Shown in pieces: positions 1,866 through 12,943 of a DNA stretch of 64,000 nucleotides (position 1 is its first letter; each line of letters opens with the position of its first letter). Under the pieces are notes generated by a model. That model saw nothing but the letters and a program-made list of their open reading frames with translations, was not told the DNA's origin and searched no databases. Location: contig NZ_CP089979.1 in assembly GCF_021389935.1 (NCBI RefSeq), positions 2,709,001 to 2,773,000 on the forward strand, given 5' to 3'. The DNA is from Fulvivirga ligni. Lineage in GTDB: Bacteria; Bacteroidota; Bacteroidia; Cytophagales; Cyclobacteriaceae. Both the position numbers and the translations under genes were made by a program.

Positions 1866-3419
1866 ATGAAGAAAGAATTTAAAATACTAGACTGCACATT
1901 ACGTGACGGAGGATATTACACAAACTGGGATTTCAAGTCAGATTTGGTTGAGAATTATTTTAGAGCTATGGATAAATTACCCATCGATTATCTTGAGGTT
2001 GGGTATCGTAGTCGGAAATTAAACAACTATTTAGGACAATACTTTTATTGTCCTGAATATGTACTTGAAAATGCCAGGAGGTTTACTAATAAAAAGCTCG
2101 CTGTTATACTGAATCAGAAAGATTTTCCGCTAGAGGATGTAAGGAATATATTAGTTCCGGTAAAGGATTACCTTGATCTTATAAGAGTAGCTGTTAGTCC
2201 AGATAGTTTTGGTGAAGCTCTTAAGCTCGCAATTGAATTGAAGAATCATGATTTTAAGGTTGCATTCAATGTCATGTACATGTCATCCTGGACAGACAAG
2301 GGGGACTTTATTAATGAGTTATCCCAGACCTCCGGCTTGGTAGATTATTTCTATATGGTGGACTCTTTCGGTGGAGTATATCCAGAAGATGTCAAGCAAA
2401 TTATTAAAATGGTAAAGGATCAAACCGATGTGCCTTTGGGTTTTCATGGACATAACAACCTAGAGCTTGGTCTGATTAATACTTTAACGGCTATAGATGA
2501 AGGCGTAGATATTGTAGATGCCACAATTACAGGTATGGGCCGTGGTGCAGGAAATCTAAAGACAGAGTTGCTACTTACAGCTTTAAATGCCAGGCAGGAC
2601 TTGAACGTAGACTTTAATGCCTTAACTTCCGTGGTTGATCAATTTGAAAAACTTCAGTCGGAACATAATTGGGGTACAAATTTGCCTTACATGGTTTCTG
2701 GAGCCAACTCCTTGCCTCAAAAAGACGTGATGGAGTGGGTTACTAGAAGATTTTTTTCATTTAATAGTATTATAAGGGCTCTTCAAAACCGTAAAAAAGG
2801 AGAACAGGATAATGAGAAGTTAGATGTTTTTCAAGTAAAAGAGAAATATGAAAACGTTCTTATTGTTGGTGGAGGGCCCAATGCGGCCGACCATGCCGAG
2901 GCTATTGAACAATGGATAAAGCAAAATAATTCTATTGCAATTATTCATGCCAGTTCTAAAAATGCCAAGCATTATGAAAATCTTGTAGATGTACCGCAGT
3001 ATTTCTGTCTTGTAGGAAGTGAGGGGCATCGTCTTGAGAACGTTTTTAAGCAAATGACCGATTTTAAGGGAGAGTGTGTTTTACCTCCTTTCCCGAGAGA
3101 AATGGGAACTTATATTCCAACAGCTCTGGAAGGTAGGTCTAAAGAACTAAAAGAAGTCACATTCACTAAAGTGATGAAGGATACTCATACTGTACTGGCA
3201 CTGCAAACGGCCATAGATCTAGGAGCAGAACACGTTTATTTCGTAGGTTACGATGGATATATGGAAGGAAATATATCTCAGCAAGAGAAAGGTCTTTCAG
3301 AAGAAAACGAGCTTATTTTTCAAGATTTTAAGGCTTACACAGGTAACGATTTAGTATCTCTTACACCTACTAATTATAAGAAGCTTAATGTACAATCGGT
3401 TTATGGAGAGTTAGTTTAA
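1866..3419 (+). CDS. DRE-TIM aldolase with C-terminal Rossmann-like domain
   Basis: Two-domain enzyme. Residues 5-290 are an HMG-CoA-lyase/4-hydroxy-2-oxovalerate-aldolase-type TIM barrel: LDCTLRDGGYYTNWDF holds the metal Asp9 and catalytic Arg13, and GFHGHNNL (His194, His196) completes the divalent-metal site. Residues about 325-517 begin with NVLIVGGGPNAADHAEA and resemble a nucleotide-binding domain of the MptE/DUF115 type. Members of this superfamily make or break C-C bonds to pyruvate or acyl-CoA. Its stop overlaps the start of a CMP-sugar transferase by one base (TAATG), followed by a HAD phosphatase, so I infer it builds a 2-keto sugar acid that is then activated with CMP. The substrate is unknown. 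Confidence 0.75.
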   Translation: MKKEFKILDCTLRDGGYYTNWDFKSDLVENYFRAMDKLPIDYLEVGYRSRKLNNYLGQYFYCPEYVLENARRFTNKKLAVILNQKDFPLEDVRNILVPVKDYLDLIRVAVSPDSFGEALKLAIELKNHDFKVAFNVMYMSSWTDKGDFINELSQTSGLVDYFYMVDSFGGVYPEDVKQIIKMVKDQTDVPLGFHGHNNLELGLINTLTAIDEGVDIVDATITGMGRGAGNLKTELLLTALNARQDLNVDFNALTSVVDQFEKLQSEHNWGTNLPYMVSGANSLPQKDVMEWVTRRFFSFNSIIRALQNRKKGEQDNEKLDVFQVKEKYENVLIVGGGPNAADHAEAIEQWIKQNNSIAIIHASSKNAKHYENLVDVPQYFCLVGSEGHRLENVFKQMTDFKGECVLPPFPREMGTYIPTALEGRSKELKEVTFTKVMKDTHTVLALQTAIDLGAEHVYFVGYDGYMEGNISQQEKGLSEENELIFQDFKAYTGNDLVSLTPTNYKKLNVQSVYGELV

Positions 3420-4114
3420 TGAAGGTTTCATTTTTTCTTCCTATAAGAACTGGTAGTCAGAGGGTTTTAAATAAAAACATGAGACCATTTGCTGGATTTC
3501 AATCTGGCATATTAGAACTCAAACTTAGGCAGTTATTAAAAAGTTCTAAAATCGATGAAGTATTACTGTCTACCAATGATATGCAAGCTTTGGCCTTGGC
3601 TAATGAGCTTGATCCGAATCAAGAAAAGATTAAGACAGTGAAGAGGCCTAATGAGCTATGTTTGGACACTACTTCTCTAACAGACCTCATTAAATACGTT
3701 CCCACTGTAGTAAAACATGATGTTATACTTTGGGGCCATGCCACTACACCTTTGGCAGGTGCAAAGATTTATGATCAGGCGGTGTTAAAGTATGTAGAGG
3801 CGCTGAGAAACGGTTTTGATTCCTTAATATCCGGATGTGCATTTAAGAATTTTTTATTCGATAGAGATACTAATAAATTAATAACAGAGCAGCAATTCGG
3901 ATTGAAGTGGCCAAGAACGCAAGATTTACCAGATTTGTTCGAGGTAAATCATGTTATTTTTATGGCTCATAGGAATATCTACTTAAAGCAACAGGACAGG
4001 GTGGGGGGCAATCCCTATTTCTATGAAATGGATAAGTTGACATCTACTGATATTGACTGGGAAGAAGATTTTAAAATAGCGGAAGCACTTTATGAAAGAT
4101 TTGGAAAGCTATAA
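3419..4114 (+). CDS. Cytidylyltransferase, CMP-sialate/CMP-Kdo synthetase family
   Basis: Activates a 2-keto sugar acid with CTP to give a CMP-sugar, the donor for the GT29-like enzyme two genes on. The N terminus LPIRTGSQRVLNKNMRPF (residues 7-24) is a divergent form of the family's nucleotide loop (usual form PARGGSKGIPRKN), followed by LLSTNDMQALALA and a VKRPNELCLD segment where NeuA proteins have RP..LA.D. At 231 residues it has the size of NeuA/KdsB. It is translationally coupled to the aldolase by a one-base overlap and overlaps the HAD gene by 23 bases. The actual sugar acid (sialate, legionaminate, Kdo or something new) is not readable; no NeuB homologue is in the window. Confidence 0.8.
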   Translation: MKVSFFLPIRTGSQRVLNKNMRPFAGFQSGILELKLRQLLKSSKIDEVLLSTNDMQALALANELDPNQEKIKTVKRPNELCLDTTSLTDLIKYVPTVVKHDVILWGHATTPLAGAKIYDQAVLKYVEALRNGFDSLISGCAFKNFLFDRDTNKLITEQQFGLKWPRTQDLPDLFEVNHVIFMAHRNIYLKQQDRVGGNPYFYEMDKLTSTDIDWEEDFKIAEALYERFGKL

Positions 4115-4715
4115 GGTTATATTCTGGGATTTTGATGGGGTGATTTTAGACTCCATGTCTGTAAGAGATCAGGGATTCATTGAAGTGTTAAAGGAATATC
4201 CGGATAATCAGGTAGATAAGCTGTTGGAATTCCATAGAGCTAATGGTGGCCTGTCACGTTATGTTAAATTTAGATACTTCTTTGAGAATATATTAGGGGA
4301 GAGTATAAGTGAGAGTGAAGTAAATGGATTAGCTCAACAGTTTTCTGTGATAATGAAATCTATTTTGTCTAATCCTGAATTATTAATCAAAGATAGCGTT
4401 CAATTTATTGCTGATAATTACTCTAACTATTCAATGCATATTGTTTCTGGTTCTGATGGTGAAGAGTTAAGATATCTTTGCGAACAACTTAAAATAGATC
4501 ATTATTTTCTAACCATCGAAGGCTCACCTACAGCTAAAATTGAGTTGGTGAAAAATATATTAGAAACCTATATGTATGAAAAGAATGATTGTGTTTTAAT
4601 AGGTGATTCTAAAAATGACTATGATGCAGCCAAAATGAATACAATAGACTTTGCTGGTTATAATAATGAAGAACTTCGCTTATTACATTCTAGCTATATT
4701 GAAAAATTTCGATAA
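4092..4715 (+). CDS. HAD-superfamily phosphatase
   Basis: Haloacid-dehalogenase-type hydrolase with the nucleophile motif WDFDGVILD (Asp13, Asp15), a cap region of about 90 residues, a VSGSDGEE motif II and GDSKNDYDAA as the Mg-binding motif IV. At 207 residues it resembles beta-phosphoglucomutase/Gph-like enzymes (C1 cap) rather than cap-less KdsC. Its start lies inside the end of the cytidylyltransferase, and its stop is followed directly by the next ATG, so expression is coupled. Within this cassette the likely job is to remove the phosphate from a sugar-acid phosphate made by the aldolase before CMP activation; this is inferred from order only. Confidence 0.8.
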   Translation: MKDLESYKVIFWDFDGVILDSMSVRDQGFIEVLKEYPDNQVDKLLEFHRANGGLSRYVKFRYFFENILGESISESEVNGLAQQFSVIMKSILSNPELLIKDSVQFIADNYSNYSMHIVSGSDGEELRYLCEQLKIDHYFLTIEGSPTAKIELVKNILETYMYEKNDCVLIGDSKNDYDAAKMNTIDFAGYNNEELRLLHSSYIEKFR

Positions 4716-5507
4716 ATGAGATATTTAAAAGCATTATTTGGCTTGTGGATAATGCCATTTAGAATTCGTTTTTTTAATCCAAAAAAAATTTTTTTAAATA
4801 AACGTGTGGCAGTAGTAGGTCCTGCTGATTCAACTCATGATGATGAAAATGGAGATATTATCGATAGTTATGATGTTGTAATAAGAATGAATAAGGCTTT
4901 GGTGACTTGGAACCCTAAGAATCAAAAATATTTGGGTACTAGAACTGATGTATTATTTCATAATTTTTATGAAAATATGAATTCAGGTGGAGGAGGGCCA
5001 TTGGACTGGGAGATTTTTAAAGGACACGGAGTGAAATATCTTATTCAGCCCCGCTTTGATAAAGAGGGGTGGCGATTGATGTTTAACTATTTTAAAAAGT
5101 ACTTAAATACTAAAAATTCTATATATCTATTTTCTCATAAGAACTATAGTAATATAGTGGGGCAATTTGATAAGTATCATCCCACCAGAGGCTTCTATGC
5201 TCTGAGTGCTGCGCTTGAATCGAATTGCAAGGAAGTGTTTATAACAGGGTTTACGTTTTTCAAAACACCATATGCAGAAGGTTATAGAGATAACATTCGT
5301 GATATGAAGGAGAATGAAAAACATATTCAAAATCAGGGTTTACATAATGTTGATTTAGAATATAATAATTTTTTGAAGCTACTTCAGAATACACCCATTA
5401 AGAATGTTAAAGTGGATAAAAAATTATATGCAATAATTAAAAGTGACTCTAAAGAGTTAGCGGATAAAGTTCAGATAATAAATGCATTAAACTTAAGGAA
5501 TGGTTAA
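4716..5507 (+). CDS. Glycosyltransferase family 29 (sialyltransferase-like)
   Basis: Resembles GT29 sialyltransferases, which use CMP-sialic acid. KRVAVVGPADS (residues 29-39) and IDSYDVVIRMN (49-59) match the first half of the large sialyl motif, where eukaryotic and bacterial GT29 enzymes read VVGN(G/S) and IDxxDxVIRxN. Later, HPTRGFYALSAALES and CKEVFITGFTFF correspond to the small-motif region. The length of 263 residues suits a bacterial GT29. It begins directly after the HAD stop and overlaps the next gene by 8 bases. The match to a CMP-sugar-using family right behind a CMP-sugar synthetase strengthens both calls. The exact linkage is unknown. Confidence 0.75.
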   Translation: MRYLKALFGLWIMPFRIRFFNPKKIFLNKRVAVVGPADSTHDDENGDIIDSYDVVIRMNKALVTWNPKNQKYLGTRTDVLFHNFYENMNSGGGGPLDWEIFKGHGVKYLIQPRFDKEGWRLMFNYFKKYLNTKNSIYLFSHKNYSNIVGQFDKYHPTRGFYALSAALESNCKEVFITGFTFFKTPYAEGYRDNIRDMKENEKHIQNQGLHNVDLEYNNFLKLLQNTPIKNVKVDKKLYAIIKSDSKELADKVQIINALNLRNG

Positions 5508-6540
5508 GAGTAATATTTACATAGATACTATTAAGGAGCAACAAAAACTTTTATTTGATTGTCTTAAAATGATTTTAAAACAGGGAGATAAGGTAGCCCT
5601 ACTAGACTTTCCAAATCATAATAACGTAGGCGATAATGCTATTTGGTTAGGAGAGAAGGCCGCGTTGAAGAAAATTGGGGTGGAAGTGGTGTATGAGTGT
5701 GATATTTATGGCTTTTCCGAACTGGCGTTGCGTAAGCATCTTGGTAATGATGGAATTGTATTACTTCATGGAGGTGGTAATTTGGGTAGTGTATGGCCTG
5801 AGCACCAGAGATTTAGGGAGCGCATCATTCAGTCCTTGCAAGATATGACAGTGGTACAGTTGCCGCAAAGTGTATTTTTTGATAATGATGATGAGTTAAG
5901 AGCTTTTGGAAATATCGCGGGAGAACATCAAAATCTACATATTCTTGTTCGTGATAAGGTCAGCTTTAAAATGTTAGATGATCTTAACCTAAATGTACAA
6001 CTATGCCCTGATATGGCTTTTGCCATAGGAGCCATACCTTCAGAAGGTAATCCTAAGGTTGACGTAGTATGGCTATCACGGTCCGATCATGAGTCTGCAG
6101 GCTATGACATAAATGATGCAAATTTTAAGATAGAAAAGTTAGATTGGCTTCAAGGTGAGCCTGGCAGGTACTATTCTAAATTCAGTCCGAAAATAACGGT
6201 TAGAATTAGAAGACTAGTACAGCGAATTTTCCGTCAATCTTCATTTGTCCGTAATCATTGTTGGAAAATGAATACTACCTTCTTTGATGCCTTGGCACAA
6301 CGAAGATTAAACCGGGGGGTGCGTATTCTGAGTAGGGGTAAAATAGTTGCTACTGACAGACTTCATGGGCATATAATCTCAACACTAATAGGGAAACCCC
6401 AGATTTTATTTGATAATCACTATAAAAAGATTGGTAATTATAGAGATTGTTTTGAGCCTGCACATGAAGCGATATTTTACGATTTAGACAATAAATCAAA
6501 TATCGAAGAGAATATATCCAAAGCTTTGGACTTTTCTTAA
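5500..6540 (+). CDS. Polysaccharide pyruvyl transferase family protein
   Basis: WcaK/CsaB-type enzyme that transfers pyruvate from PEP to a sugar as a ketal, or a structurally related GT-B transferase. Diagnostic segments are DFPNHNNVGDNAIWLGE near residue 38, IVLLHGGGNLGSVWP, TVVQLPQSVFF and the C-terminal VATDRLHGHIISTLIGKP. The length of 346 residues is typical. The ATG at 5500 lies 8 bases before the end of the GT29 gene and is preceded by AAGGA, one of the few reasonable Shine-Dalgarno-like sites here. It would give the polymer acidic pyruvate groups. Some family members have other functions, so the substrate is left open. Confidence 0.85.
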   Translation: MVKSNIYIDTIKEQQKLLFDCLKMILKQGDKVALLDFPNHNNVGDNAIWLGEKAALKKIGVEVVYECDIYGFSELALRKHLGNDGIVLLHGGGNLGSVWPEHQRFRERIIQSLQDMTVVQLPQSVFFDNDDELRAFGNIAGEHQNLHILVRDKVSFKMLDDLNLNVQLCPDMAFAIGAIPSEGNPKVDVVWLSRSDHESAGYDINDANFKIEKLDWLQGEPGRYYSKFSPKITVRIRRLVQRIFRQSSFVRNHCWKMNTTFFDALAQRRLNRGVRILSRGKIVATDRLHGHIISTLIGKPQILFDNHYKKIGNYRDCFEPAHEAIFYDLDNKSNIEENISKALDFS

Positions 6541-9354: not shown

Positions 9355-10143
9355 ATGATAAATCAGTTCTTAAGAAGAACAATACGCAAGTTTTCTAAGA
9401 GACGAAGTATATTGAATTCAGAGATTATATTAGACGCCGTTGAAATAAGTAATACAATAAACCATTGGTTGTCGGATTCTAGTTACGTAAAGGTTTCTAT
9501 GGGAGAGAATTGTAATAGCTCTTGGTATTTAAAAGAAACGGGAAATAAAGAGGCATCCTATCCCTATGATTGGATATTTTCAAGTGGAGATATTATTAGC
9601 CATACAATAAGGGATGAATTTAAATCTTTCCTCAATAAAGATATGATGTTCAATGTAAATAGAAATAAAGCAGGTCATTCATTATATCATTCATTGCTCT
9701 TTAACCATAGAAATCCTTTAAAATCAAATGAAGACTACCAATATTATGTTCGAGCATCTGACAGGTTTCTTAAACTTTTAAAAAATAACGGAAATAATAT
9801 CTTATTTGTTTGTACAGTTATTCAGGAAACGAATAAAAGACCTGGTTGGACGAAGGGATTTGATAGAAGCTTTAAAGTTCCAATTAATCAAAATCTGGAT
9901 TCATTCACAGAAATGATTCAATATATAAAAAGTATTAATGAAAATGTAAAATTTATTTTTATTAATCAACTAACAGAGGATAATTATAAATTAGAAATAA
10001 AGTCAATAAATTCCGTCTCCCTATGGCTGGACTTTTGTTCTGAAGGTGAAAACTCTGGAGTAAAATACTTAAATCGCCTAGATGATACCATAATGAAAAT
10101 TATATATAAGGGGATGTGTCAGAAAGCTTCCTACAATAATTAA
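9355..10143 (+). CDS. DUF1796 family putative papain-like cysteine peptidase
   Basis: The N-terminal part, MGENCNSSWYLKETG then SYPYDWIFSSGDII (about residues 37-70), matches the hallmark of DUF1796, a family predicted to have a papain-like fold, where a Cys in a SLGxNC-like motif is followed by a PFDW motif. A later GHSLYHSLLFNHRNP provides candidate His residues. There is no signal peptide, so it should act in the cytoplasm. The length of 262 residues is ordinary. Such proteins recur in glycosyltransferase loci but have no proven activity. It stands alone between two long spacers, with higher AT content than the enzyme genes around it, which suggests a mobile cargo gene. Confidence 0.7.
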   Translation: MINQFLRRTIRKFSKRRSILNSEIILDAVEISNTINHWLSDSSYVKVSMGENCNSSWYLKETGNKEASYPYDWIFSSGDIISHTIRDEFKSFLNKDMMFNVNRNKAGHSLYHSLLFNHRNPLKSNEDYQYYVRASDRFLKLLKNNGNNILFVCTVIQETNKRPGWTKGFDRSFKVPINQNLDSFTEMIQYIKSINENVKFIFINQLTEDNYKLEIKSINSVSLWLDFCSEGENSGVKYLNRLDDTIMKIIYKGMCQKASYNN

Positions 10144-10619: not shown

Positions 10620-12068
10620 ATGTTATTTAACTCTATTGATTTTGCGATTTTTCTGCCCATTGTATTTATCCTTTATTGGTTTGTCTTAAGTAAACAAATC
10701 AAAGTCCAGAACCTTTTGATTTTAGTCGCAAGTTATGTCTTTTATGGTTGGTGGGATTGGCGGTTTCTATCATTAATAGCGTTTAGTACGCTTGTAGACT
10801 TTATAATTGGAGTAAGTTTGAAGCGTGAACAAAGCGTTTTTAAAAGAAAGGCGTTGCTTTGGACTAGTATTTCTATCAACCTGGGTTTCCTCGCTTTTTT
10901 TAAATATTATAATTTTTTTATCAATAGTTTCGTTGACGCCTTTTCATTGTTTGGGTCTCAGTTTGAATTAAGCTCTTTAAATATAATTCTGCCTGTTGGT
11001 ATAAGCTTTTATACTTTTCAAACATTAAGCTATTCTATAGATGTCTATAAAAGAAAATTGGAACCAACTAAGGATTTTATTGCCTTTGGCGCCTTTGTTA
11101 GTTTCTTCCCTCAATTAGTTGCAGGCCCCATTGAAAGAGCATCACATTTACTTCCTCAATTTTATAATCGAAGAAAGTTTGATTACGGAAAATCAATTGA
11201 TGGCTTGCGTCAAATGCTATGGGGACTATTTAAAAAAATAGTAATTGCCGATAATTGTGCTGAATTTGCTAATCAAATTTTCGATAATTACGACCATCTT
11301 ACAGGAAGTACTTTGATTCTAGGAGCCATTTTTTTTACTTTTCAGATATATGGTGATTTCTCAGGGTACTCTGATATTGCCATTGGCGTTTCTCGATTAT
11401 TTGGTTTTGATCTAATGCAAAACTTTAATTATCCCTATTTTTCCAGAGACATGGCCGAATTCTGGAGAAGATGGCATATTTCATTATCCACTTGGTTTAG
11501 AGATTATCTTTATATTCCTTTGGGTGGAAGTAGAGGAGGTAAATGGATGCAGATACGTAATACCTTTATCATCTTCATTGTAAGTGGTTTTTGGCACGGT
11601 GCTAATTGGACCTTTATAGTTTGGGGTTTTTTGAATGCATGTTATTTCCTTCCGCTCTTATTGTTCAATAGAAATAGGCAAAACATTGGGGATATTGCAG
11701 TAGAAAGAATTTTTCCATCCTATAAAGATATCATTTCAATTTTCATCACCTTCTCACTGTCTGTATTTGCGTGGATTTTTTTCAGATCAGAAAGCTTATC
11801 ACACGCCCTACATTATATTTCGGGAATTATGTCACCATCAGTATTTTTATTTCCAAAATTTAACAATATGGGGCATGCCCTTGAAACATTCATTCTTATA
11901 CTCATTTTTATATTAATCGAATGGAATGGTAGAGGTCAAAAATATGCTATTGCTACACTGGGCTTCTCTTGGAGGAGATCATTACGGTTAGCACTCTATT
12001 ACACATTGGTAATCGCTATATTTTGGTATGGGGGTAATGAGCAGGAATTTATTTATTTTCAGTTTTAA
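10620..12068 (+). CDS. MBOAT family O-acyltransferase (AlgI-like)
   Basis: Integral inner-membrane acyltransferase that passes acyl (usually acetyl) groups across the membrane for polysaccharide O-acylation. The N terminus FAIFLPIVFILYWF begins a series of about ten membrane helices. Family marks are FFPQLVAGPIERASHLLPQF, DMAEFWRRWHISLSTWFRDY (invariant first His of AlgI/DltB) and WHGANWTFIVWG (second His). The length of 482 residues is standard. The next gene, 5 bases on, encodes a GDSH/DHLN protein, so together they look like an AlgI/AlgJ or PatA/PatB pair. Confidence 0.92.
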   Translation: MLFNSIDFAIFLPIVFILYWFVLSKQIKVQNLLILVASYVFYGWWDWRFLSLIAFSTLVDFIIGVSLKREQSVFKRKALLWTSISINLGFLAFFKYYNFFINSFVDAFSLFGSQFELSSLNIILPVGISFYTFQTLSYSIDVYKRKLEPTKDFIAFGAFVSFFPQLVAGPIERASHLLPQFYNRRKFDYGKSIDGLRQMLWGLFKKIVIADNCAEFANQIFDNYDHLTGSTLILGAIFFTFQIYGDFSGYSDIAIGVSRLFGFDLMQNFNYPYFSRDMAEFWRRWHISLSTWFRDYLYIPLGGSRGGKWMQIRNTFIIFIVSGFWHGANWTFIVWGFLNACYFLPLLLFNRNRQNIGDIAVERIFPSYKDIISIFITFSLSVFAWIFFRSESLSHALHYISGIMSPSVFLFPKFNNMGHALETFILILIFILIEWNGRGQKYAIATLGFSWRRSLRLALYYTLVIAIFWYGGNEQEFIYFQF

Positions 12069-12073
12069 TTAGT

Positions 12074-12943
12074 ATGAAATATTTCATCAAGAAACTAGGT
12101 TTTTTTTGCTTTGCAGTGGGTTTGTTTTTTACAATAAATAGTACGATTAATTTATTCTTTATCAAGAATAATGCCCCGTTGTTGAAGGGAGCTGACATAT
12201 TAATTGTTGGGGATTCACATACTGAAAGAAGCCTTAACCCTGACTTATTTGCTAGTGCTGAAAATATTTCCCAACCTGCCGAACCGTACGTTCTAACATA
12301 TTGGAAATTAAAATCAATTTTTAAAACATATAAGCCCGATACATTAGTTTTAGGCTTTAGTCATCATAATATTTCTTCATTTAATGATAGGAAGTTTTCT
12401 GATAAGACTTGGGCGATGGAAATGTTTAGGCGCAGTTATTCAATTGAGCATTTCGAGGACATAGACCACACTATAAAAGTGGATTATGATATGTACTATA
12501 GCACGTTATTTCATCAGATTGGATTTTACCCTAAAGCTCATCACGCCAATTATATTGGAAAATATGTTAATTCTAATAGAAGCAATATTAGTGATTGGAA
12601 TGATGCAGTAAATAGGCATTTTTATGAGAGTGAAGGGAAAAGTTATATGCCTTCTCTAACCATGATAAATTATTTAGATTCAATTGTTAATCTCACCATT
12701 AATAATAAAGTAACATTAATAATGGTTAGTAATCCGGTTGTAAATAATTATAGAGAAAGAATCCCTGATGAGATTGTTACAGTTTACAATGAGTTAAAAA
12801 ATAAATACAGGAAAAATTCTATAATAATAGATAAGAGTAATGTCAGCTACCCAGATTCACTTTTTTTAAATGCAGACCACTTGAATTCAAAGGGAGCCAA
12901 ACGATTTACTACGAGTTTAATTGCGGAGTTAAAAAAAATATAA
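12074..12943 (+). CDS. SGNH-like protein paired with MBOAT acyltransferase
   Basis: Probably the periplasmic partner that transfers the acyl group delivered by the upstream MBOAT protein onto the glycan. It has one N-terminal membrane anchor (about residues 5-30), then ILIVGDSHTERS with Ser48 in the position of the SGNH block-I nucleophile, a VLGFSHHNISS segment, and a C-terminal NADHLNSKGAK (Asp268, His269) like block V of AlgX/AlgJ/DUF1574-type proteins. The match is by motifs only; overall sequence is divergent. It is 5 bases behind the MBOAT gene and 52 bases ahead of a GT4. Confidence 0.65.
   Translation: MKYFIKKLGFFCFAVGLFFTINSTINLFFIKNNAPLLKGADILIVGDSHTERSLNPDLFASAENISQPAEPYVLTYWKLKSIFKTYKPDTLVLGFSHHNISSFNDRKFSDKTWAMEMFRRSYSIEHFEDIDHTIKVDYDMYYSTLFHQIGFYPKAHHANYIGKYVNSNRSNISDWNDAVNRHFYESEGKSYMPSLTMINYLDSIVNLTINNKVTLIMVSNPVVNNYRERIPDEIVTVYNELKNKYRKNSIIIDKSNVSYPDSLFLNADHLNSKGAKRFTTSLIAELKKI

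Follow-up and report, generated by a model that had tools for sequence, protein, structure and literature searches.

Near the start of a 64,000-nt window (positions 2709001-2773000 of the single-contig, 6.52 Mb Fulvivirga ligni genome) lies a compact cassette of four genes, for an aldolase, a cytidine monophosphate (CMP)-sugar synthetase, a HAD phosphatase and a GT29 sialyltransferase-like enzyme. The charge of bacterial surfaces, their sensitivity to phages and their recognition by hosts depend on acidic sugars, and, to our knowledge, the known routes to these run through NeuB or KdsA, synthases dependent on phosphoenolpyruvate (PEP). Here the cassette is considered probably to make a CMP-activated 2-keto (likely 3-deoxy) sugar acid with neither.

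All four open reading frames (ORFs), of 517, 231, 207 and 263 aa, are on the + strand, the first occupying 1866-3419. An earlier note on this DNA had described them as overlapping or abutting, as is so (overlaps of 1 nt and 23 nt, then 0 nt), and the next gene overlaps the GT29 gene by 8 nt. Its four enzyme identities are also borne out, by Pfam matches above curated cut-offs (Table 1; CTP_transf_3 at 7e-11 and Glyco_transf_29 at 5.3e-16). The CMP synthetase belongs to PF02348 and passes no specific NeuA, PseF or KdsB model, its PseF score being 60.7 bits, short of 205.7, and its match to PpNeuA (9t4z) 7e-8. Homologues of the HAD protein, 44-60% identical, stand beside all 9 other full-length aldolase places of a same-phylum sample. 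For the GT29 protein, whose motif we take to be that named HX4E, the PDB match is at only E 0.093.

Table 1. Coordinates, within the window, of the cassette features and of the gene that follows
Feature	Position	Strand	Basis
Aldolase N-terminal (beta/alpha)8 domain, DRE-TIM/DmpG-like, residues 1-305	1866..2780	+	HMGL-like 2.1e-24; 3dxi E 1.5e-119; 1nvm aligned
Aldolase C-terminal domain, residues 322-517, predicted sialyltransferase/Maf-like fold, GGGP and GYDGY motifs	2829..3416	+	AlphaFold2 model, Foldseek
CMP-sugar-acid synthetase (NeuA/PseF-like cytidylyltransferase)	3419..4114	+	CTP_transf_3 42.8 bits vs cut-off 22.6
HAD subclass I phosphatase, proposed sugar-acid phosphate phosphatase	4092..4715	+	HAD_2 2.6e-13
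GT29 sialyltransferase-like glycosyltransferase, HX4E motif (HNVDLE)	4716..5507	+	PF00777 59.2 bits vs cut-off 23
Polysaccharide pyruvyl transferase family, same polysaccharide cluster, outside recurrent core	5500..6540	+	PF04230 2.4e-28

The aldolase barrel is closest to 3dxi, the N-terminal domain of the putative aldolase BVU_2661 of Bacteroides vulgatus (Foldseek target TM-score, TMt, 0.97), and more distantly aligns with DmpG (1nvm). With an HMGL-like barrel, an RDG motif and HxH metal ligands it is a DRE-TIM metallolyase. It falls outside the DmpG/BphI subfamily (TIGR03217 92.3 bits against a cut-off of 286), whose base histidine is replaced. In the 1NVM alignment Arg17, Asp18, Ser171, His200 and His202 of DmpG, which we take to form its pyruvate-enolate site with Asp18 as metal aspartate, fall on Arg13, Asp14, Ser167, His194 and His196, all invariant in the 63 aligned relatives. 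Of the metal ligands named in the earlier note, His194 and His196 thus stand and Asp9 gives way to Asp14, of the RDG motif; Asp9 is likewise invariant in 63/63. Among the matches listed, the closest named relative is from Roseivirga pacifica (79% identity). BphI, on the evidence of an excerpt of PMC3962088, is a class II pyruvate aldolase modelled on DmpG/1NVM.

Recurrence in cellular genomes and on viral contigs

Loci (L-numbers; genomes have G-numbers, both as labelled in this analysis) were selected by the aldolase alone, and a CMP synthetase or HAD gene was counted when on that strand and no more than 5 kb from the aldolase, by hidden Markov model (HMM) plus Pfam, as the seeded HMMs miss CMP genes in L039 and L123 and HAD genes in L110 and L127. 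The 92 cellular loci are the window, 9 same-phylum places, 2 from Leisingera and the best 80 loci of a genome-contig scan. Ninety were tallied, with L087 and L095 (contig ends, no complete aldolase ORF) left out. L069 and L061 duplicate the records L037 and L044; they are counted in the 90 and removed from the distinct-aldolase tallies, the tree and the test of NeuB against a second CMP gene; L114 (split aldolase ORF, 445 aa) is left out of the distinct-aldolase tally and tree only. The 88 distinct aldolases of the HpcH and GT29 tally are 87 cellular ones plus viral L130, and the 88 of the NeuB test are cellular only. Set A2 is without L080, which has a stop inside its match range, and the two Leisingera rows are outside A2 and A3. 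In the same-phylum sample (395 genomes, the window's included) full-length relatives of at least 49% identity are at 10 places in 9 genomes, the window counted, and an eleventh relative, with the C-terminal domain and 27% identity, is in G323. The Halomonas-phylum sample (398 genomes) at E<=1e-30 has three matches, in the seed genome, in G809 and, of barrel length, in G564.

A CMP synthetase is near the aldolase at 85 of the 90 cellular places (83 by HMM, L039 and L123 by Pfam), where chance would give about 0.6%, an estimate from three PF02348 places in the window genome. The linkage is beyond chance, and the idea of a one-off assembly was rejected on this count. The five places lacking the gene are L058 and L128, close to contig ends, and L094, L098 and L099, of Pelagibacteraceae. 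A HAD gene is near at 66/90 (64 by HMM, L110 and L127 by Pfam), and the three genes co-occur in several phyla. Instead of HAD, the CMP gene of L060 and L066 is followed by a PfkB-type sugar kinase; for the kinase of L060 the top models are 2-keto-3-deoxygluconate (KDG)-kinase-like, far under cut-off. The four-gene order that the earlier note had thought worth searching for across genomes recurs as to aldolase, CMP synthetase and mostly HAD, and not as to GT29, which adjoins at 8/90 places (the window, L050-L053, L082, L083, L108) plus viral L130. GT29 is an optional member of a core of aldolase and CMP synthetase, mostly with the phosphatase. HX4E is kept in 8 of these 9 GT29 proteins and absent from that of L130. 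All eight cellular cases have NeuA-type CMP genes, and L130 holds both CMP types; the pairing is suggestive, GT29 needing just 5 changes on the barrel tree (a quick tree with long viral branches, 43 of its 130 inner branches open). One genome (G112:C1) has two cassette copies, L038 and L039, about 20 kb apart, with aldolases 80% identical and differing middle genes.

A different type of linkage is direct fusion. In 37 of 59 viral loci (viral by IMG/VR classification of the contigs) barrel and KdsB-type synthetase are in a single ORF of ~540-590 aa. These fusions form 20 clusters at 95% identity and 8 at 60%, and the fused form needs only 2 changes on the tree. In L131 the barrel is at 1-302 (275 bits) and the synthetase at 321-563 (322 bits), the latter half exceeding the NCBIfam PRK13368 cut-off (265.6 vs 255). 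L159 contains a phage-type DNA polymerase (825 bits). Weaker GT29-like matches occur elsewhere in five viral loci other than L130. At L132:4682-7785 the proteins encoded after the fusion, one combining cupin and phosphoheptose-isomerase-like parts and the other a PfkB-type kinase, are candidates to supply the phosphorylated aldehyde.

Origin of the acid and exchange of partners

The earlier note had NeuB and KdsA absent. For the cassette and the window this holds: in a genome-wide search no PF03102 or PF00793 place is within the window, and the locus accordingly has no PEP-synthase member. The two PF03102 matches of the genome (36.7 and 22 bits), far from the window, coincide with matches of 245 and 144 bits to PF00793, the 3-deoxy-D-arabino-heptulosonate 7-phosphate (DAHP)-synthase family, and a NeuB elsewhere in the genome was therefore rejected. 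Beyond the window the claim fails: upstream of the aldolase, at a distance of 7.8 kb and so about 6 kb past the window edge, are genes for KdsA (389 bits against 314 at the cut-off) and for a KdsC-type protein (162 bits, passing the YrbI subfamily cut-off and not the KdsC equivalog one). The upstream genes there (L046:10654-13842; G000:C1 ~2701653-2704841) are those for the KdsC-type phosphatase, KdsA, a nucleoside diphosphate (NDP)-sugar epimerase-like short-chain dehydrogenase/reductase (SDR) and a polysaccharide-export-like protein (77.6 bits, sub-cut-off).

That pair is one of several observations that weigh against synthesis of the acid by the aldolase. PF03102 has a match somewhere in the genome in 23 of the 40 carriers, drawn from the best 80 loci, that were searched for it, and NeuB is in the locus itself in 11/92 cellular (10 distinct) and 5/59 viral cases. 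No HAD gene was found within the counted distance at 24 of the 90 cellular places, many in gut Bacteroidota. A second pyruvate-type aldolase, HpcH/HpaI, is within 5 kb of 11 of the 88 distinct aldolases, often between aldolase and CMP gene. Among four Halomonadaceae (L107, L125, L121, L124) with aldolases 85-91% identical, what stands between aldolase and HAD is a NeuA-type gene, a KdsB-type gene or HpcH plus a NeuA-type gene; with the CMP type varying among such closely related aldolases, it is not set by the aldolase. At the position of DmpG His21, which we take to be the base, the window has Tyr17, with Tyr in 62/63 relatives and Phe in 1/63; given the five invariant residues, the metal-bound 2-keto-acid enolate machinery appears kept and the acceptor side to differ. 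BphI, a relative, favours cleavage, according to an excerpt of PMC8560999.

Part of this would be expected if the CMP enzyme activated an acid made elsewhere, either 3-deoxy-D-manno-octulosonic acid (Kdo) from the upstream KdsA/KdsC or a NeuB product, with the aldolase only modifying or supplying something else. The upstream pair, the NeuB-containing loci and the swaps of CMP type are to be read alongside KdsA above cut-off in 40 of 45 carriers searched and CMP partners that are KdsB-type over the curated cut-off (L043, L033). We nevertheless regard this alternative as unlikely, as the viral fusions join the barrel itself to a KdsB-type enzyme, and the window genome has a separate CTP_transf_3 gene at 1.88 Mb (202 bits), presumably its KdsB. 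Among the five carriers without KdsA over cut-off, L126, L117 and L128 have strong NeuB; L111 (Rossellomorea aquimaris) and L090 (a Bacillus metagenome-assembled genome, MAG), both Bacillaceae, give only DAHP-synthase-like scores for KdsA and NeuB (2/45), a lack that is not absolute, these being draft genomes of unstated completeness. Both retain DAHP synthase, itself PEP-dependent. In the L111 genome the cassette's CTP_transf_3 is the only strong one. PF03102 is without a match in 17/40 carriers, with only a 32-bit match in the L111 genome.

Of the two synthases, KdsA was not found in the flanks of the 92 cellular loci by an HMM seeded with one KdsA; NeuB is present in the minority of loci counted above, and these usually have an extra CMP enzyme. 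A second CMP synthetase is present in 8/10 loci with flanking NeuB versus 5/78 without (distinct cellular loci, Fisher p 8e-7), consistent with two distinct acids that are activated by different enzymes. The same is seen on a viral contig, where L159:8995-12890 has, beside the aldolase-KdsB fusion, a NeuB (140 bits), an RraA-like protein and another CMP synthetase, giving two CMP-sugar-acid sets; with a NeuB adjoining, it is less likely that the additional CMP gene is served by an RraA-like aldolase. Fusions, the two carriers and the second CMP enzyme beside NeuB together tie the aldolase to its CMP enzyme, and the earlier proposal that it replaces a PEP-dependent synthase is supported by context, namely the recurrent operons, the fusions and the two carriers lacking family-strength NeuB and KdsA. 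E. coli KE47 (L196:10036-13747) has NeuA-like, acetyltransferase, inositol-monophosphatase-family and NeuB-type genes in a capsule-like locus with ATP-binding cassette (ABC) export genes.

Activation of a phosphonate, as in PntC pathways, would also employ a CMP enzyme, and an excerpt of PMC6697681 has nucleotidyl activation of phosphonates as common on cell surfaces. PEP mutase, however, has no match in the window, L111, L090 and L050 genomes, in a search in which none of 14 control genomes was over cut-off and which so had no positive control; the L105 genome has three matches, far below cut-off. With no match in the window genome the phosphonate pathway was rejected, and it is exceedingly improbable.

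The HpcH cases point to a further possibility, two-step chain building by the aldolase and HpcH in series. The former would then give a short keto acid or an aldehyde instead of the final sugar acid; where HpcH is lacking, the second step would fall to the same aldolase or to some other enzyme. The order aldolase, HpcH, CMP enzyme in L038, L039, L041, L054, L056, L107 and L123 is what it would lead one to expect, but HpcH is lacking within 5 kb of 77/88 distinct aldolases and the 59 viral loci gave zero HpcH matches, so that we hold it quite doubtful. On the tree HpcH needs 9 changes and CMP type 17 (starred branches force fewer, 8-9 per label). With partners changing around a constant aldolase, either the aldolase is acceptor-tolerant and the aldehyde supply varies, or its step is common to several acids. 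At L110:10624-13964 and L127:10716-14427 the aldolase is followed by an LdpA-like iron-sulfur protein, HAD, HpcH and a KdsB-type gene.

In the synthesis favored here, that of the acid by the cassette aldolase, the metal-bound barrel would convert pyruvate, or a keto acid related to it, to the enolate and join this to an aldehyde that is probably a phosphorylated aldose. The HAD enzyme would then take off the phosphate and the cytidylyltransferase would yield the CMP-sugar acid. Finally a sialyltransferase-fold enzyme, whether the C-terminal domain of the aldolase, GT29 or both, may transfer the sugar acid to the growing polysaccharide.

The C-terminal domain and the setting of the cassette

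In the earlier note the aldolase had two domains with a Rossmann-like C terminus, which is right as to the domains; the fold, from the structure prediction since run, is more precisely sialyltransferase/Maf-like. The AlphaFold2 model of residues 322-517 has a mean predicted local distance difference test (pLDDT) score of 95.3. Its first nine Foldseek matches are Maf (5mu5, 1.4e-5), MptE (8sd5, 5.9e-4), CstII twice (1ro7 at 1.1e-3, and 2.6e-3), human ST8SiaIII twice (9.3e-3) and three unrelated (best 5.5e-3). Two are thus at E<=0.001, Maf and MptE, with CstII just beyond at 0.0011; template modelling (TM) scores by query length are modest for the first three, 0.60, 0.53 and 0.46. In profile alignments GGGPS and GYDGY of the domain fall on GNGPS and GIDFY of CstII. 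The fold being nearest to Maf, MptE and CstII, the whole protein has the look of a sugar-acid synthase fused to a domain that resembles CMP-sugar transferases and may itself be an active one. Sequence divergence is faster in the domain than in the barrel; over 62 relatives, identity to the window averages 34% and 46%, respectively.

There is a serious, if lesser, possibility that the domain is instead a nucleotide-binding regulatory or kinase domain (MptE-type pyrophosphokinase), with GT29 and other glycosyltransferases performing the transfer. MptE is its best sequence match (8sd5, E 0.033) as well as its second fold match, and CstII (0.12-0.45) and Maf (0.47) are weak, interspersed with unrelated chains and no better than some of them. 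Pfam MptE-like reaches E<=0.01 in 26/63 members of the aldolase family. Downstream of GYDGY, where what we take to be the CstII base, His188, is located, the family consensus lacks a His. On the other side, fold matches 1, 3, 4, 8 and 9 are Maf, CstII and ST8SiaIII, and Asp463 and Tyr465 align with CstII Asp154 and Tyr156. Also, the domain is missing from all 37 viral fusion ORFs, as a separable transfer step would allow. In L169, L170 and L172 a domain like it (45, 51 and 33 bits) is a separate gene near a barrel gene and a KdsB-type gene. The window domain is not within PF01973, MptE-like (18.5 bits, gathering cut-off 34.6), and a PF01973 search of the window genome gave no match. The L111 genome has one strong match, distant from the cassette contig, and that of L090 one of 30.6 bits, sub-cut-off. 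In L131 a gene two genes downstream of the fusion has a sub-cut-off MptE-like match (32.1 vs 34.6 bits). A 423-aa gene upstream of the aldolase in the Bacillus MAG (L090:6264-7535) is, by coordinate matching, seemingly the source of its 30.6-bit match. On plasmid pAge77 of Thalassovita gelatinovora (L197) a NeuA-like gene has in its neighbourhood three genes annotated as MptE-like and one for a phosphoglycerate dehydrogenase, with no aldolase annotated or matched there.

By Pfam the cassette is within a polysaccharide cluster, with a sulfotransferase and a GT2 gene upstream, and the pyruvyl transferase of Table 1 and two GT1-type glycosyltransferases downstream. The same cluster includes a DUF1796 protein (window 9355-10143; 4.5e-10) and, at window 10620-12943, an MBOAT acyltransferase and, after it, a 289-aa protein with no Pfam match.

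Comparison with known pathways

Whether a pyruvate aldolase that depends on metal, can be exchanged between bacteria and viruses and also carries a sialyltransferase-like domain for handing the sugar on constitutes a third general route to CMP-sugar acids besides NeuB and KdsA is, in our estimate, evenly balanced. If so, it would explain CMP-sugar-acid genes in genomes without NeuB and KdsA, and as yet unknown sugar acids would be expected in viruses as well as in Bacteroidota, marine Gammaproteobacteria and some Bacillaceae. As aldolases can accept many aldehydes, such a route may give chain lengths and stereochemistries beyond those of the PEP synthases, e.g. 3-deoxy-pentulosonic, hexulosonic and heptulosonic acids, and a fused enzyme could serve chemo-enzymatic synthesis. 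The viral fusions allow the claim to be tested directly with one protein. Among the entries listed from open-access literature, with most subscription journals outside the search, there was no published description of cassette, enzyme or product, and none by name of BVU_2661/3dxi, an entry of the same family as the cassette aldolase that covers the N-terminal domain only.

With the NeuB/NeuA and KdsA/KdsC/KdsB pathways the cassette shares a C-C bond-forming step to a 2-keto acid (proposed here), a phosphatase, a PF02348 CMP synthetase and a sialyltransferase-type glycosyltransferase. It differs in having a DRE-TIM aldolase for the PEP-dependent synthase and a subclass I HAD for the KdsC type, and in that its synthase is fused to a transferase-like domain or, on viral contigs, to the CMP synthetase. 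The 4-hydroxy-2-oxovalerate aldolases DmpG and BphI have the same barrel, RDG...HxH metal site and Arg17/Ser171 equivalents, whereas the cassette aldolase has Tyr for His21 and a C-terminal domain of other fold. That fold is like those of Maf (5mu5), CstII (GT42), ST8SiaIII (GT29) and MptE, here in a version of ~196 aa, fused to an aldolase and of putative activity.

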